NCBI RefSeq assembly: GCF_000620705.1
Contig: NZ_KK211166.1
Location: 124,001-188,000, forward strand
DNA length: 64,000 nt
From: Nocardioides sp. URHA0020
GTDB taxonomy: Bacteria > Actinomycetota > Actinomycetes > Propionibacteriales > Nocardioidaceae
Direction of reading: 5' to 3'
The notes below the pieces were generated by a model. The model was not told the DNA's origin, did not search any database, and was given only the letters and a program-made list of their open reading frames with translations. The position numbers and the translations under genes are program-made. Of the stretch, positions 2,607 through 18,083 are shown piece by piece (the stretch's first letter is position 1; every line of letters starts with the position of its first letter).

Positions 2607-2800
2607 TACTTCACCTTGTTGAGTGCCGAGGACACCATGTCCTGCAGGGCCGGCCCGGCGATCGCAGTGATGCCGACGACGAGCCCGGCGGTCATCACGG
2701 TGATCATCACCCAGCCGGGCACGTCGCCGCGCTCGTCACGCGGTCGCGGTGCCACCACCGTGAGGCAGATCCTCGTCAGCGCGAGGGTGAGGTGTTCCAT
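2606..2800 (-). CDS. Flp-type small pilin-like protein (DUF4244-like)
   Basis: 64 residues, too short for many gene callers. ATG at 2800 follows an AAGGA site about 9 bases upstream. An N-terminal basic segment ends in RDERGDVPGWVMITVMTAGL: a Gly before a hydrophobic helix (about 29-50), as in prepilins cleaved by a TadV-type peptidase. The mature peptide would be only about 35 residues, the size of Flp pilins. Its place between tadC and tadE is where flp sits in actinobacterial tad operons. Best candidate for the major pilin of this locus. Confidence 0.7.
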   Translation of the reverse strand: MEHLTLALTRICLTVVAPRPRDERGDVPGWVMITVMTAGLVVGITAIAGPALQDMVSSALNKVK

Positions 2801-2829
2801 GGATCGCGTCCTTCCAGGTGAGGGAGTGG

Positions 2830-3765
2830 TCAGGGAGTGGTCAGGGAGAGGCCCACGACGCCGGGCCAGAAGGCGAAGAGCACGGTCACGGGCAGCACGA
2901 GGAACACGACGGGCACCATCATCAGGACCTCCTTGCGAGCGGCGGTCTCGATGAGCTCGCGCCGCCCGGCCTCGCGCACGTCGGCCGCCTGGGCGTGGAG
3001 CACGTCGGCCAGCGGGGTGCCTCGCTCGACGGCGACCGCGATGCCCTGCGCGAAGCGCGACACGATCGGCAGCCCGGTCGTCGCGGCCATCGCGTCGAAG
3101 GCGGAGCTGACCGGCTCGCCGGTCCTGATGGCGGACAGCACCCGGGCGAGCTCGCGCGAGAGCTCGCCGCCACTGCGGCGCACGACGCGGTCCAGCGCCA
3201 TCACCGGGCTCTCCCCCGCGGCCACTGCGAGCGCCAGGAGCTCGGCGATGGTAGGGAACTCGGCGAGGATCTGGCGCTCGCGTCGGCGCACCTGGCTGGT
3301 CAGGTGGGTGTCGCGGGCGAGCACGCCGCTGACGAACGCGATCGCGCACGCGATCATCCAGAGGACGACCGACCCGGGATGGGTAAGCACGCGGAGCAGG
3401 GCGAAGGCCGCCACGGCGCCGAAGGCGACCAGTCCCCACACGACCTGCTCGACGCGGAGCTCCTGCACGGTCTTGTCGATCCCGGCCCGCTCCAGCCGGC
3501 GGCGTACCGACGTCGCGCCGCCCAGCACGCGTTCGACGGCCTCGGCCGCCGAGCGCAGCGGTGGTCCGAAGACCCCGACCGCCGCGGACGTCGCAGCCGG
3601 AGCGGTCCGCGGCCCGGACTCGTCGAGCTGCGGGAGGTCACGAACGTAGGGCAGCACCCGGAGTGCGAGCTGTGGACGCCGGATGGTGCGGACCCGGACG
3701 ACGACCACCAGCAGACCGGCCGCGGCCGTGGCACCGAGCAGCGCGCCCCACACCGGCGGGCTCAC
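2830..3765 (-). CDS. tadC: TadC-like inner-membrane pilus assembly protein (GspF/T2SSF domain)
   Basis: 311 residues from GTG at 3765, which overlaps the tadB stop by four bases (GTGA); an upstream in-frame ATG at 3831 lies inside tadB and is less likely. N-terminal helix (PPVWGALLGATAAAGLLVVVV), a paired helix region about residues 115-165, a cytoplasmic four-helix T2SSF domain (RQILAEFPTIAELLALAVAAGESP...), and two C-terminal helices (KEVLMMVPVVFLVLPVTVLFAF). TadC with TadB forms the membrane platform on which the TadA ATPase drives pilus assembly. The stop lies in an 11-base direct duplication. Confidence 0.88.
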   Translation of the reverse strand: MSPPVWGALLGATAAAGLLVVVVRVRTIRRPQLALRVLPYVRDLPQLDESGPRTAPAATSAAVGVFGPPLRSAAEAVERVLGGATSVRRRLERAGIDKTVQELRVEQVVWGLVAFGAVAAFALLRVLTHPGSVVLWMIACAIAFVSGVLARDTHLTSQVRRRERQILAEFPTIAELLALAVAAGESPVMALDRVVRRSGGELSRELARVLSAIRTGEPVSSAFDAMAATTGLPIVSRFAQGIAVAVERGTPLADVLHAQAADVREAGRRELIETAARKEVLMMVPVVFLVLPVTVLFAFWPGVVGLSLTTP

Positions 3766-4613
3766 GACAGGATCCGGCGCTCGACGGGCAGGCGACCGAT
3801 CCGCATCATCAGCCGGTAGGCGACGACGCACAGCCCGGCACCGACCGCGAGCACGAACACGCCCGTGGGCGAGGCGTAGCGGTGGATGACGTCGGACTGG
3901 AAGGACATCAGCAGCAGGACCAGCCAGGGCGACGCGACGGCGAGGCGGGCGCCGTTGAGGGTCCAGGCCTGACGGGCCTCCATCTCCGAGCGGGTCCGCG
4001 CGTCCTCACGCAGGTAGGAGGAGAGGCTGCGCAGCAGGCGCCCCAGCTCGCCGCCACCGACGTCGCGGGCCACGCGCAGACCCTCGACCACGCGGTCGCC
4101 CACCGGGTCGGCCAGCCGCTCCTTGAGCCGGTCCAGCGACTCCCCGAACCGCCCGGTGACCTGGTAGTCCAGCGCGAACTGGTCGAACGCCTCGCGCAGC
4201 GGCGCCGGGCCGCGGACGGCGAGCCCGGCCAGCGCGTCGGGCAACGACATGCCGGCTCGTACGGCGGAGGTCAGGTTGTCGACCGCCTCCGGCCAGACCT
4301 CGGCCAGCTCCTGCTGGCGCCGTCGGGCCCGACCGGACACCACCGCGACCGGCAGGTAGCCGCCCATCACGCCGAAGGCGAGGGCCACCGGCGGCGTCCC
4401 CGACACCACCTGCATCACCAGGGCGGTGACCGTCGCGCAGACCAGGCACAGCAGCACGAACCCGGTCGCCGACACCTGGCCGAGGCCGGCCCGCGCCAGC
4501 AGGTCCGTCGTACGCCGTGACGTGGCGGCACCGCGAGGTCGGCGCGGCAGGAAGAACGCGCTCCAGACCAGCAGCAGGCCGATGCCCACGCCCAGTCCGA
4601 CCAGCGCGCCCAT
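3762..4613 (-). CDS. tadB: TadB-like inner-membrane pilus assembly protein (T2SSF domain)
   Basis: 283 residues; the ATG shares one base with the tadA stop (TGATG). Layout: N-terminal membrane helix (3-22), a second helical pair (about 50-90), a cytoplasmic T2SSF domain (EVWPEAVDNLTSAVRAGMSL, about 105-215), and two terminal helices (LAVASPWLVLLLMSF; TGVFVLAVGAGLCVVAYRLM). Length and order match the TadB family. Partner of TadC in the cytoplasmic membrane. Confidence 0.9.
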   Translation of the reverse strand: MGALVGLGVGIGLLLVWSAFFLPRRPRGAATSRRTTDLLARAGLGQVSATGFVLLCLVCATVTALVMQVVSGTPPVALAFGVMGGYLPVAVVSGRARRRQQELAEVWPEAVDNLTSAVRAGMSLPDALAGLAVRGPAPLREAFDQFALDYQVTGRFGESLDRLKERLADPVGDRVVEGLRVARDVGGGELGRLLRSLSSYLREDARTRSEMEARQAWTLNGARLAVASPWLVLLLMSFQSDVIHRYASPTGVFVLAVGAGLCVVAYRLMMRIGRLPVERRILS

Positions 4614-14630: not shown

Positions 14631-15848
14631 TCAGCGTTGGGGCAGCAGGACTTCGATGCCGTCGGCGGGGTGCTCGCCGATCAGCCGGCCGCCGAGCGCC
14701 TCGACCACCGCACGGACCTGGCTGAGACGGTCGACCGTCTCACCGCCGAGCTCCGACTCCGGGGTGCGCCCCGCGCACAGCACGGTGATCCGCAGATGGC
14801 CGTCGGCCCCCGCGTTGAAGACGATCCGGACGGCGCCGGTGCCACGGCGTACGACGTCGGCGAGCAGCAGGTCGGTCGCGTGCTCGACCGGGCCGGGGGT
14901 GTAGCGCAGCGTCAGGTCGCCCTCCACGGCCGCGGTGAGCGCGCGGTTGCGGGAGCCGAGCCGGTCCGCCCAGCGCTGCGCCAGCTGCGCGGACAGCTCG
15001 GACAGCGGGACCTCGGCGCCGATGACGAGGCTGCCCCGGCGGGTGATCTCGACCAGCTCGGCCGCCACGGCCGAGACCTCCTCGACCCGGGCCAGGCAGC
15101 GCAGCACGGTCTCGTGGGCGTCCGACGGCAGGTCGTCGCGCAGGCTGAGGTCCTCGAGCTCGAGCCGGATCCCGGTCAGCGGGGTGCGCAGCACGTGCGA
15201 GGTGTGCTCGGCGAAGGCGCGCTCGCGGTGCATCCGGTCCTCGAGCGCGAGGGCGCTGGAGCGCAGGGCGTCGGCGATCGCGCTCGCCTCCGGGATCCGG
15301 GTCCTCGGCAGGTCGAGGTCGAAGCGACCGCGACCGAGCGCGGCGGCCGCGATGGCCAGGCGCTTGAACGGCGCGGACAGCGCCGTGGCGATGAGGAAGC
15401 CGACGATGCCGGCGGCAACCCCGATCAGCAGGAAGAGCGCGGCGATCGACCCGATGTCGCGTCCGATGACGTCGCGGATCACCGACGAGGACTCGCTGAC
15501 GGTGACCTGCCCGGTGCCGTCGACGACCTCGGTGGCCGAGATGTCCTTGCCCGGGTCGCCGTCGCCCTGGTAGTCCTTGCCGGTCACCACGACGGTCGCG
15601 TCGCCGGCGACGTCGTACTCCAGCCGGTCCTCGGGGCCGACCAGGGTCTGCAGGAACGCGGCGTCGACGGTGCCGCCGGACGCCTCCCGGTCGGTGACGA
15701 TCGCGGCGACCAGGTCGGCCTCCTGACTGAGCTGCCCGGCGACCTGCTCACGGATCAGGTCCTGGAGCACGTAGGTGCGCACCAGACCCGCCCCCAGCAG
15801 GAGGACGATGCTCAGGACGATGAAGGCAGCGGTGAGCCGCTCACGCAT
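14631..15848 (-). CDS. Sensor histidine kinase with degenerate ATP-binding domain
   Basis: 405 residues from ATG 15848, which overlaps the regulator stop by eight bases. Helix 1 (7-28), an extracytoplasmic sensor (29-130), helix 2 (about 133-157), HAMP (158-210), then the H-box AEHTSHVLRTPLTG with phospho-acceptor His218. The C-terminal ATPase region is odd. The usual N-box Asn is absent (DLLLADVVRRG occupies the place of NLLxNAxxHG), and the DxGxG loop is replaced by VLCAGRTPESEL. Either ATP binding is lost or strongly modified. Pairs with the adjacent OmpR-type regulator. Confidence 0.85.
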   Translation of the reverse strand: MRERLTAAFIVLSIVLLLGAGLVRTYVLQDLIREQVAGQLSQEADLVAAIVTDREASGGTVDAAFLQTLVGPEDRLEYDVAGDATVVVTGKDYQGDGDPGKDISATEVVDGTGQVTVSESSSVIRDVIGRDIGSIAALFLLIGVAAGIVGFLIATALSAPFKRLAIAAAALGRGRFDLDLPRTRIPEASAIADALRSSALALEDRMHRERAFAEHTSHVLRTPLTGIRLELEDLSLRDDLPSDAHETVLRCLARVEEVSAVAAELVEITRRGSLVIGAEVPLSELSAQLAQRWADRLGSRNRALTAAVEGDLTLRYTPGPVEHATDLLLADVVRRGTGAVRIVFNAGADGHLRITVLCAGRTPESELGGETVDRLSQVRAVVEALGGRLIGEHPADGIEVLLPQR

Positions 15849-16536
15849 CGGTGGGGCCGCCTTCGAGGCGGAATCCCACACCCCGAACGGCCACCACGCG
15901 GTCAGTCACGCCGACAGACTCGAGCTTCTGGCGCAGCCGACCGATGGTGACGTCGAGCGTCTTGGTCGAGCCGTACCAGTTCTCGTCCCACACGTCGGCC
16001 ATCAGCCGACCGCGCGAGACCACCTTGTCCCGGTTGGCGGCAAGGATCGCGAGGACCTCGAACTCCTTGCCCGTCAGCGGGACCTCCTCCGTGCCGGCGT
16101 AGACCCGGCGGGCCTCGACGTCGATGCGGACCCCGTCCGGGGACACCTCGTCGACGCTCTGGGCCAGAGGTGAGGCGGTACGGCGCAACAGGGCGCGCAC
16201 GCGCGCCTGCAGCTCGGCCAGGCCGAAGGGCTTGGCCAGGTAGTCGTCGGCCCCGTAGTCCAGGCCGACCACCCGATCGAGCTCCCCGGCCCGCGCGGTG
16301 ACGATGATGATCGCCCCCGTGTAGCCGGCCTCACGAGCCCGACGACAGACCTCGAGCCCGTCGATGTCCGGGAGCCCCAGGTCGAGGATCACGAGCTCGG
16401 GCCCCGACGCCAGGGTGTCGAGAGCCTTCTGCCCGCTCTCGACCCACTCGACGTCGTACCCCTCGCGCTCCAGGGTGCGAACGAGGGGGAATGCGATGTC
16501 CTCCTCGTCCTCGACGACCAGGACACGTTGCGCCAT
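15841..16536 (-). CDS. OmpR/PhoB-family response regulator
   Basis: 231 residues. Receiver domain with acidic pocket EDEED (9-13), phospho-acceptor Asp52 (ILDLGLPDIDG), Thr80 and Lys102 (AKPFG). A winged-helix DNA-binding domain follows (about 130-225, LTGKEFEVLAILAANRDKVV, and the wing RGVGFRLE). The start at 16536 has no ribosome site, but a TATGCT -10 box lies seven bases upstream, so the mRNA is probably leaderless. First gene of a likely operon with the kinase, HAD phosphatase and FtsX/ABC exporter. Confidence 0.93.
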   Translation of the reverse strand: MAQRVLVVEDEEDIAFPLVRTLEREGYDVEWVESGQKALDTLASGPELVILDLGLPDIDGLEVCRRAREAGYTGAIIIVTARAGELDRVVGLDYGADDYLAKPFGLAELQARVRALLRRTASPLAQSVDEVSPDGVRIDVEARRVYAGTEEVPLTGKEFEVLAILAANRDKVVSRGRLMADVWDENWYGSTKTLDVTIGRLRQKLESVGVTDRVVAVRGVGFRLEGGPTDA

Positions 16537-16580: not shown

Positions 16581-17198
16581 TCACTGTTTCGCCTCCCGGG
16601 TGCCCGACTTCACTCCCGCACCGCTCGTCCCAGCCCCCGTGGGCCACGGCGTCGCCCCGGCCTCCGGCGCGGCCGATGCCCGCAGCGTGGGCGCAGGTCG
16701 TCGCAGGCGACGTGACAGGAGCACCACGAGCACCACCGCCGAGGCCACCGTCAGCAGCCACGCCTGGTGGTGGCGGAGCCCGAGGTAGGCCCACCCGACC
16801 CACGGGACCGTCAGCTCGACCCGCGACATCGTCGGCCCCTCGGTGCGCAGCACCCACGGGTCCGGGGCCGCCACGGCGTCGCCCTTCGTCCGGATGCCGT
16901 CCGGCTCGATGGCGATGATGCGATGGGTGACCATCGCGTCCTGCTCCGAGTCACCCGGCGCCCGGAACGTCACGACGTCGCCGACGCGGAGGTCGCTGAC
17001 GGGGACGACGCGCTCGAAGACGATCGAGCCGCGATCGATGCTGCCCGCCATGGAGTCGCTGGACACGACGTAGCGCTGGAGACCGAGACCGATCGGCAGC
17101 AGCACGAAGAGGGTCACGGGAGCGAAGAGCACCACGAACAGCAACCAGCGCCCCCACGGCGTAGGCGCCGGGAGGCGGGAAGCGGTTTCGATCTCCAT
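16581..17198 (-). CDS. SipW-type (ER/archaeal-like) signal peptidase I
   Basis: 205 residues. Helix about 18-40, then the nucleophile region YVVSSDSMAGSID with Ser49-Met50. The general base is His92 (MVTHRII), not Lys, which marks the SipW/archaeal S26B class. A C-terminal helix (about 146-166) is followed by a basic, Pro/Ala/Gly-rich cytoplasmic tail. In Bacillus the SipW enzyme processes TasA-like proteins. Here the TasA-like gene lies just upstream on the same strand, so it is the likely substrate. Loop residues after the Ser differ from the usual SMxPxxxxGD (Pro to Gly, Asp to Ser), so activity should not be taken for granted. Confidence 0.8.
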   Translation of the reverse strand: MEIETASRLPAPTPWGRWLLFVVLFAPVTLFVLLPIGLGLQRYVVSSDSMAGSIDRGSIVFERVVPVSDLRVGDVVTFRAPGDSEQDAMVTHRIIAIEPDGIRTKGDAVAAPDPWVLRTEGPTMSRVELTVPWVGWAYLGLRHHQAWLLTVASAVVLVVLLSRRLRRPAPTLRASAAPEAGATPWPTGAGTSGAGVKSGTREAKQ

Positions 17199-17229
17199 GG
17201 TCCGTGCTTTCCGAGAGTGGGGGGTGGAT

Positions 17230-17424
17230 CTGTCGGCCCGAGCGCTCCCCCCCAAGCGCCGGACCGACAGCTCCGTCTCGCAGAACGACCTGCGCGGCAC
17301 TCCCCCAGATGCGCCGCACGGTCGTCCGAATGTGGTGTGACGGTGACCGTCCGCGTTCCCCCCAGACGCGCGGGCGGCCACCGTCATCCCAGGGACCGGG
17401 TCGGCCAACAGCCCGATCGGTCCC
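17230..17424 (+). ncRNA. Candidate 6C-like RNA: tandem hairpins with C-run loops
   Basis: Three consecutive hairpins occupy the gap between the TasA-like and SipW-like genes: 17230-17270 (outer stem CTGTCGG/CCGACAG, loop with seven C), 17285-17325 (outer stem ACGACC/GGTCGT, loop with five C), 17338-17386 (outer stem TGACGGTG/CACCGTCA, loop with six C). A fourth stem (GGGACCG/CGGTCCC, 17392-17424) has no C-run. Two hairpins with six or more loop cytosines define the actinobacterial 6C RNA. Strand is uncertain: read on the minus strand the loops carry G-runs ending in GGA and would lie in the tasA-sipW mRNA. No U-tract terminator or clear promoter was found. Confidence 0.45.
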
Positions 17425-17448
17425 AGCTCTTCAGTTGTGGGTCAGCTG

Positions 17449-17976
17449 CTACTTCTCCCTGGTCACGGTGTTGACCCAGGTGTAGGTCGCCGTGGCGGGC
17501 TTCCCCTGGTCCGCGAACGGTGCGTCGTCGGGCAGCGACACGGTGAACGCGAACTTGCTGGACGCGCCGGGAGCCAACGAGCCGACATCCTGGGTGACGT
17601 CGTTCATCTCCCCGAACGGGCCGCGGTAGATGGTGCGGCCGTCCTGCTGGATCCGGAGCTCGAGGGCACCGCCGGCGAAGGCGGACGCCTCGGCGTTCTC
17701 CTCGAACGTCAGCCGGGACTGGCCGGACGCCGAGTTGCGGATCGTCACGACCTTGGTCGCGGAGTCGCCCGGCTCCAGCTCGGTGATGGTGAGCTTGGCG
17801 CCCTGGCCGGGCTCGGCGTGGAGGCTGACCCCGCTCGCGGCCTGGCTGGCACCCGTCCAGGGGATGCCGGCCACCGACGCGAGGACCGCGAGGCCGGCGA
17901 CGACGGCGACCGGGATGATGAACCGCTTCGCCTGCGCTACCGACGGACGCGTCGGTGCGGTGGTCGCGATGGTCAT
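17449..17976 (-). CDS. TasA/CalY-like secreted protein with alternate-type signal peptide
   Basis: 175 residues. A long N-region and hydrophobic core (KRFIIPVAVVAGLAVLASVAG, about 17-37; first 20 shown of a longer run) with ASQAAS cleavage area, as in proteins cut by SipW-type peptidases. The mature 125 residues form a beta-sandwich with GDSATKVVTIRNSASGQSRL and LPDDAPFADQGKPATATYTW, the TasA/CalY pattern. GGGAG precedes the ATG. Inference: a surface or matrix fibre subunit processed by the neighbouring SipW-like peptidase. A TAGCGT box upstream near 18019 may be its -10. Confidence 0.7.
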   Translation of the reverse strand: MTIATTAPTRPSVAQAKRFIIPVAVVAGLAVLASVAGIPWTGASQAASGVSLHAEPGQGAKLTITELEPGDSATKVVTIRNSASGQSRLTFEENAEASAFAGGALELRIQQDGRTIYRGPFGEMNDVTQDVGSLAPGASSKFAFTVSLPDDAPFADQGKPATATYTWVNTVTREK

Positions 17977-18083
17977 CTGTGGGTCTCCCGGCTGCGGCTG
18001 TGTGATCTGGTGATCACGCTAGGAGTCGGGCACCCACGACCCGTCCACACCCGGGCCACCGTTTGGTAACAGAATCCGAGGCG

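Follow-up and report, generated by a model that had tools for sequence, protein, structure and literature searches.

A conserved array of predicted G-loop RNA hairpins just ahead of a sipW-like signal peptidase gene in Nocardioides

The window, a stretch of 64,000 nucleotides from Nocardioides sp. URHA0020 (contig NZ_KK211166.1, positions 124,001 to 188,000), carries a minus-strand locus in which a gene for a TasA-like exported protein is followed by genes for a SipW-like signal peptidase, a response regulator and a sensor kinase. The intergenic gap between the TasA-like and SipW-like genes (17199-17448) holds an array of hairpins. The features of the locus are given below in window coordinates and in the reading sense of the minus strand.

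18056..18071, minus strand: box TGTTACCAAACGGTGG upstream of tasA, present also in array-less sipW loci
18016..18021, minus strand: TAGCGT, putative -10 of the tasA-array-sipW transcript, proposed from sequence only
17449..17976, minus strand: TasA-like small exported protein of 175 aa, with an N-terminal helix and a beta-sandwich in its model
17424-17392, minus strand: fourth stem, preceding hairpin 1 and lacking a G-run (from folding)
17391-17333, minus strand: hairpin 1, the first in the mRNA sense, with a G6 loop at 17363-17358 (from folding)
17327-17283, minus strand: hairpin 2, with a G5 loop at 17306-17302 (from folding)
17274-17226, minus strand: hairpin 3, with a G7 loop at 17253-17247 (from folding)
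17207..17215, minus strand: conserved CTCGGAAAG, from the columns of alignment A2
16581..17198, minus strand: SipW-like signal peptidase of 205 aa, PF10502 and TIGR02228 above cut-off
15841..16536, minus strand: OmpR-type response regulator (PF00072, PF00486)
14631..15881, minus strand: sensor histidine kinase (PF18092, PF00512)

The two family matches agree with the signal peptidase named in the initial annotation. SipW-type signal peptidases belong to the S26 family and carry Ser/His in place of Ser/Lys; the present protein combines PF10502 with Ser49 and His92, which we take to be the likely catalytic pair, and it scored below the cut-off of the Bacillus SipW model NF046067 (41 vs 190 bits). 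In alignment A3, His92 was invariant and Ser49 was replaced by Asp in L047, so that the SipW-like protein of that genome (G112) may be inactive. TasA-type fibre proteins have a jelly-roll fold; comparison of the TasA-like model with known structures (Foldseek) gave no single clear relative, and the two PDB sequence matches of this protein, the better at E 0.54, were taken as chance. The box upstream of tasA is likely a response-regulator site, and one search pattern recovered a box close to TGTTACCNAACGGTGG in 12 of the 18 array loci and in 9 of the 10 others. Its occurrence both with and without the array indicates that a promoter-gene arrangement already in place has gained or lost the array. 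TAGCGT is a possible -10 element, and a sigma-70 scan around it gave no promoter; CTCGGAAAG is likely the ribosome binding site of sipW.

The plus strand of the gap contains C-runs of seven (17247-17253), five (17302-17306) and six (17358-17363) residues, each within a strong hairpin. These three hairpins with loops of 5-7 C, and the C-free fourth stem, were found as first described. On each strand, none of 200 dinucleotide shuffles folded as well as the gap itself (z of -4.2 for minus and -5.0 for plus); all three hairpins were formed in the best minus-strand fold and the middle one was absent from the best plus-strand fold. When the window was searched with model R1, whose training set includes the three window hairpins, hairpins 1, 2 and 3 were matched at 17336-17387 (E 6.6e-7), 17280-17330 (E 9.6e-4) and 17224-17275 (E 4.1e-5), respectively. 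The same hairpins were the top three matches in the whole genome of the strain (E 4.8e-5, 0.003 and 0.07), the next match having an E of 0.375. As a background, 400 kb from four related genomes contained 16 YTG5-7A sites, five of them in a hairpin by the set rule, and the best of these hairpins reached -24.1 kcal/mol; three of the four such sites in the window are the array hairpins, with -32.5 to -38.0 kcal/mol. The existence of the three hairpins is confirmed; they exceed chance expectation and are conserved. A stem resembling the fourth one was recognised by eye in L002, L032 and L033, and in an altered form in L003 and L034. Separately, ACAACTGAAGA was seen to be kept upstream of hairpin 1 with or without a preceding tasA (L001, L002, L003, L031, L032 and L034). 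A coding function was rejected, as the frames of the G-runs relative to the sipW start vary between species and in-frame stops occur in some arrays. An intramolecular G-quadruplex was likewise rejected: among the 18 array leaders uncut by a contig end, 17 showed no four-tract pattern (loops of at most 12) within their final 215 nt; pattern matches numbered five in L040 and 16 in L045, which was not counted as an array.

Conservation of the stems was evaluated in alignment A1, comprising 46 hairpins from 19 loci selected by a G-run of five or more, in which hairpins of one array are related rows. This alignment leaves out two diverged hairpins of L034 and the middle hairpins of L039, L040, L043 and L047 (loop CCGGGGAGGGAG or similar). 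Two-sided change was found in 10 of 11 pairs (6 of 500 shuffles as high), 88.3% of the cells were paired compared with 67.3% after shuffling (0 of 500 as high) and the covariation score was 0.530 compared with 0.191 (0 of 500 as high), values whose significance is overstated by the shuffle control because the arrays share ancestry. In 11 whole arrays aligned, two-sided change was seen in 24 of 50 pairs. The stems are held by compensatory change, and the loops and inner stems are more constant than the outer stems. Alignment of the same gap in relatives was a check set by the first reading itself, and the conserved, compensated stems support one of its proposals, a cis-acting element, here ahead of the signal-peptidase gene.

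The strand was judged from mismatch-type cells, with 45 GU/UG against 13 CA/AC in A1 and 72 G-U against 17 A-C in A2 (40 against 17 without the inner loop pairs). This excess makes the minus strand the likely RNA, the strand shared by the tasA-like, sipW-like and two-component genes, and the loops would accordingly be read as G5-G7 (YUGGGGGGA) and not as C-runs, a reading that the initial annotation had mentioned for the minus strand. Around the G-run, for which five or more G was the selection rule while the flanks were not selected on, U preceded in 39 of 46 hairpins, A followed in 41 of 46, and the run was exactly G6 in 32 of 46. The starts of neighbouring G-runs were mostly 53-63 nt apart. 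In the array loci read, the sense of the array was constant ahead of sipW or the response-regulator gene. It had further been suggested that the third stem could switch to an alternative hairpin (GACGGT/ACCGTC). This hairpin exists here, with -6.6 kcal/mol, but the same arm gave nothing better than -4.0 in 10 of 18 arrays and folded in another register in several others, so that a conserved switch is unsupported and was set aside. The array is a conserved RNA structure predicted for the minus strand, where it immediately precedes the sipW-like gene.

When 215 genomes of the genus were searched for SipW, 36 gave a match at E 1e-30 or better. The array was present in 21 of the 36, as determined by reading the leaders and by R1 search, five of the other 15 being scored array-less only by a missing R1 match. 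G198 has the array and lacks sipW at the locus, which brings the array genomes to 22. Three hairpins are usual in this Nocardioides group and two are found in some species. The order tasA-array-sipW was found in 16 of the 22 (split over contigs in G199 and G208), whereas the locus yielded no tasA in five genomes (G213, G078, G238, G102 and G112), its order there being LigD-like gene, array and sipW; in G198 the array precedes the response regulator (tasA-array-response regulator). Retention of the array in five genomes without tasA and in one without sipW at the locus indicates that it is not merely a 3' tail of tasA. In a midpoint-rooted tree of the response regulator and kinase (29 rows), 19 array loci fell in one supported group (99/97), three more, including G198, in another (100/100), and the seven rows labelled none outside both, this label being impure since the leader of L045 is divergent but G-rich and L007 carries a G6 run that lacks a clear stem. 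L051, outside the tree, has a single short hairpin (GUUCC-GGGG-GGAAC).

With R1 at E 0.01 or less, matches were obtained in 29 of the 215 genomes, 20 at the sipW/tasA/response-regulator locus and nine elsewhere, G131 having both kinds and the training genomes G238 and G112 being missed at this threshold. At class level, 5 of 394 genomes matched at E 0.003 or less; four were of the same genus, and the fifth (E 0.0019) was taken as chance. Among 64 named sipW-like loci from several phyla, mostly records of the same species as the 215-genome set, 29 R1 matches (E 0.01 or less) were found, all in 11 Nocardioides loci, all in the sipW sense and none outside Nocardioides. In G036, G018 and G131 (L117, L118, also L143 and L144, and L112 with L142), hairpins with the same G-loop, singly or in twos, separate a gene from a second, convergent LigD-like gene; they are possibly terminators with C-loops on the LigD sense. 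Single G-loop hairpins lie at the 3' end of what seems to be the same gene in L116 and L123 (G179, G192).

The genome of the strain contains 22 exact CTGGGGGGA sites, one of which, outside the array, lies in a strong local hairpin as judged by eye. Its G-run is 39 nt before a gene for a protein of 117 aa with no family assigned, unlinked to the array and divergent from an AAA ATPase gene that is presumably MoxR-like. The 117-aa gene was found in 93 of 215 genomes, 16 with the array and 77 others, some gene starts being extrapolated from partial matches. A hairpin with a CCUGGGGGG or UCUGGGGGG loop was present in 8 of the 16 array genomes, with a variant in G163, and was lacking in seven (G219, G032, G010, G102, G127, G238 and G198). 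It was found in none of 32 inspected array-less genomes of the 77 with the gene, of which G235 has the loop sequence without the stem. This stem covaries, with two-sided change in 4 of 9 pairs and a pair-type count no better than shuffles, and its strand cells were undecided (G-U in L243, L249 and L250; C-A in L244 and L245).

6C RNAs are independent small RNAs of about 100 nt with two stem-loops and about six C in the loops, and the initial annotation had considered the array a possible variant of them. The covariance search on both strands speaks against this. RF01066 gave no match in the window at the gathering threshold, none in 16900-17800 at E up to 10 and none in the genome of the strain at E up to 5, a search of limited sensitivity. 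No match over the cut-off was obtained in 22 genomes, 21 of them with the array, in a search that scored 135 candidates of about 2,650 to 4,340 per genome and in which the Corynebacterium glutamicum control was also below the cut-off. The result was the same for 54 genomes of the genus (0 of 54), with C. glutamicum, which has a known 6C RNA (PMC4046766), likewise below the cut-off. Judged by Rfam, the array was rejected as a 6C RNA, no covariance match having reached the gathering score. That the plus strand, with its three C-loops, gives rise to a 6C-type RNA is very improbable given also the G-U excess on the opposite strand and the constant sense of the array in the loci read. The sole Rfam match above gathering score within the window was a c-di-AMP riboswitch (RF00379, 9211-9373, minus strand, 67.6 bits). 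6C-like RNAs, mostly with C7 loops, were observed in other families of the same order (L076-L083, L084, L087 and L090); these matches are below the Rfam cut-off and look genuine by eye.

With a chance somewhat short of even, the array is read here as a set of docking sites for one trans partner, probably a C-run RNA, that would set sipW and two-component output, and we infer with it that the leader is transcribed, that such a partner exists and is of this kind, and in which direction it exerts control. The constancy of the loops, their tandem copies and the second target point to a partner that reads the loop. The YUNR U-turn is a motif of known recognition loops, and YUGG at the 5' side of the loop fits it. 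The predicted pairing of a G-loop amounts to -13.5 kcal/mol with C6 and -21.5 kcal/mol with the full complement. The target study of 6C/B11 is said to be that of Mai and colleagues in 2019. By analogy, a C-tract RNA is the likeliest kind of putative partner, because C-loops of 6C/B11 RNAs pair with G6 tracts of mycobacterial leaders, as described in PMC10470900 and PMC12395582. In Mycobacterium abscessus, the G6 tract of the eccB4 leader pairs with the C-loops of B11, with compensatory mutants reported (PMC10470900). The array thus shares with 6C and B11 the homopolymer G or C tracts of actinobacterial loops or leaders, and with the B11 target a G6 tract in a 5' leader as the known target of a C-loop RNA (PMC10470900). 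It differs from the eccB4-type target in that the G-tract itself lies in a hairpin loop and is repeated two or three times, and from 6C in being cis to sipW and in being no separate known RNA; no 6C RNA was found in this genome. In the likely scheme the C-tract RNA would form loop-loop pairs with the G-loops, several of which would capture it more tightly; the pairing would stop or retard translation, or make the transcript more or less stable, and so set the amounts of the downstream sipW and two-component gene products.

The loops, the second target, the 6C precedent and the CsrA evidence together rank a C-tract RNA first, intercistronic stability second and a protein third. Stabilising stem-loops are commonly used in operons, and the array resembles them in that its very stable stems separate a substrate gene, likely an abundant one, from the gene of its enzyme, the peptidase; in addition, the terminator scan found no U-tract terminator at the array, an intrinsic terminator being a stem plus a U-tract. 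Such a barrier would block exonucleases so that the tasA message outlasts sipW, or provide a processing site, with the loops incidental. However, the sequence, flanks and length of the loops are conserved, the array is kept without an upstream tasA at the locus in five genomes, and the same loop stands ahead of another gene, so we regard this explanation as rather unlikely. Less probable again, and improbable overall, is the binding of the loops by a CsrA-type GGA-binding protein that controls translation. CsrA (PF02599) is encoded in the genome of the strain and more often in array genomes (16 of 22) than in the rest (77 of 193; Fisher p 0.005, which ignores ancestry), GGA lies within every G-run that has A after it, and several GGA-loop hairpins in tandem beside a two-component system recall CsrA-regulated leaders and the CsrB/RsmZ sponges. 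The CsrA target core in hairpin loops is ANGGA, though, which differs from YUGGGGGGA (YUG5-7A), and six array genomes keep the loops without a CsrA match (G038, G163, G131, G238 and G198, at least 91% complete, and G209, 69% complete), G038 having three G-loops and the second-gene hairpin.

That the G-loops act inside their own mRNA, either pairing with a C-run ahead of the ribosome site or serving as ribosome standby sites that pair with the 16S 3' end, is slightly more doubtful than the CsrA reading. A C6 does lie between hairpin 3 and the ribosome site here, and the pairing of a G-loop with the anti-SD of the 16S tail is about -10 kcal/mol, but only 8 of 19 arrays carry at least five consecutive C from that hairpin to the start, and no conserved C-run was found near the start of the second gene.

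For the preferred partner, a C-tract RNA, candidates were sought in the genome of the strain. Two spaced C6 runs occurred at nine places, as many as for the reversed-pattern control (9), and none of these places showed a pair of C-loop hairpins. A candidate C-loop, UCCCCCCAGA, which is the exact complement of UCUGGGGGGA, lies in the intergenic region before a tsaB-like gene and is kept in G000, G164 and G038, in a stretch of 222-224 nt with 83-87% identity. This element, around position 1500 of L057, combines a C6 loop with a large upstream stem. G158, an array genome, lacks the C-loop at the syntenic position, and in G233 a search for the tsaB place found none; scans of the locus for Rfam families and tRNAs were unremarkable, and the stretch may be the decayed remnant of an old reading frame. 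It is an unlikely, if specific, version of the docking model that a C-loop RNA, possibly this one, acts as a mirror image of 6C by kissing the G6 loops of the sipW operon and the second gene and so controls fibre export. If true, tandem G6 loops would be captured by multivalent loop-loop kissing.

In the titles and abstract openings of the matches listed for Nocardioides sipW, tasA and riboswitches, actinobacterial structured RNAs and peptidase leaders, the element was not described, and PMC7395162 had no bearing on it. The array would add to the control of an actinobacterial TasA/SipW-type export locus a structured leader RNA that Rfam 15 does not match. It suggests a use of G-tract loops as a multivalent address dedicated to regulation in trans, and its two target genes and loop sequence are available for a search for the partner.
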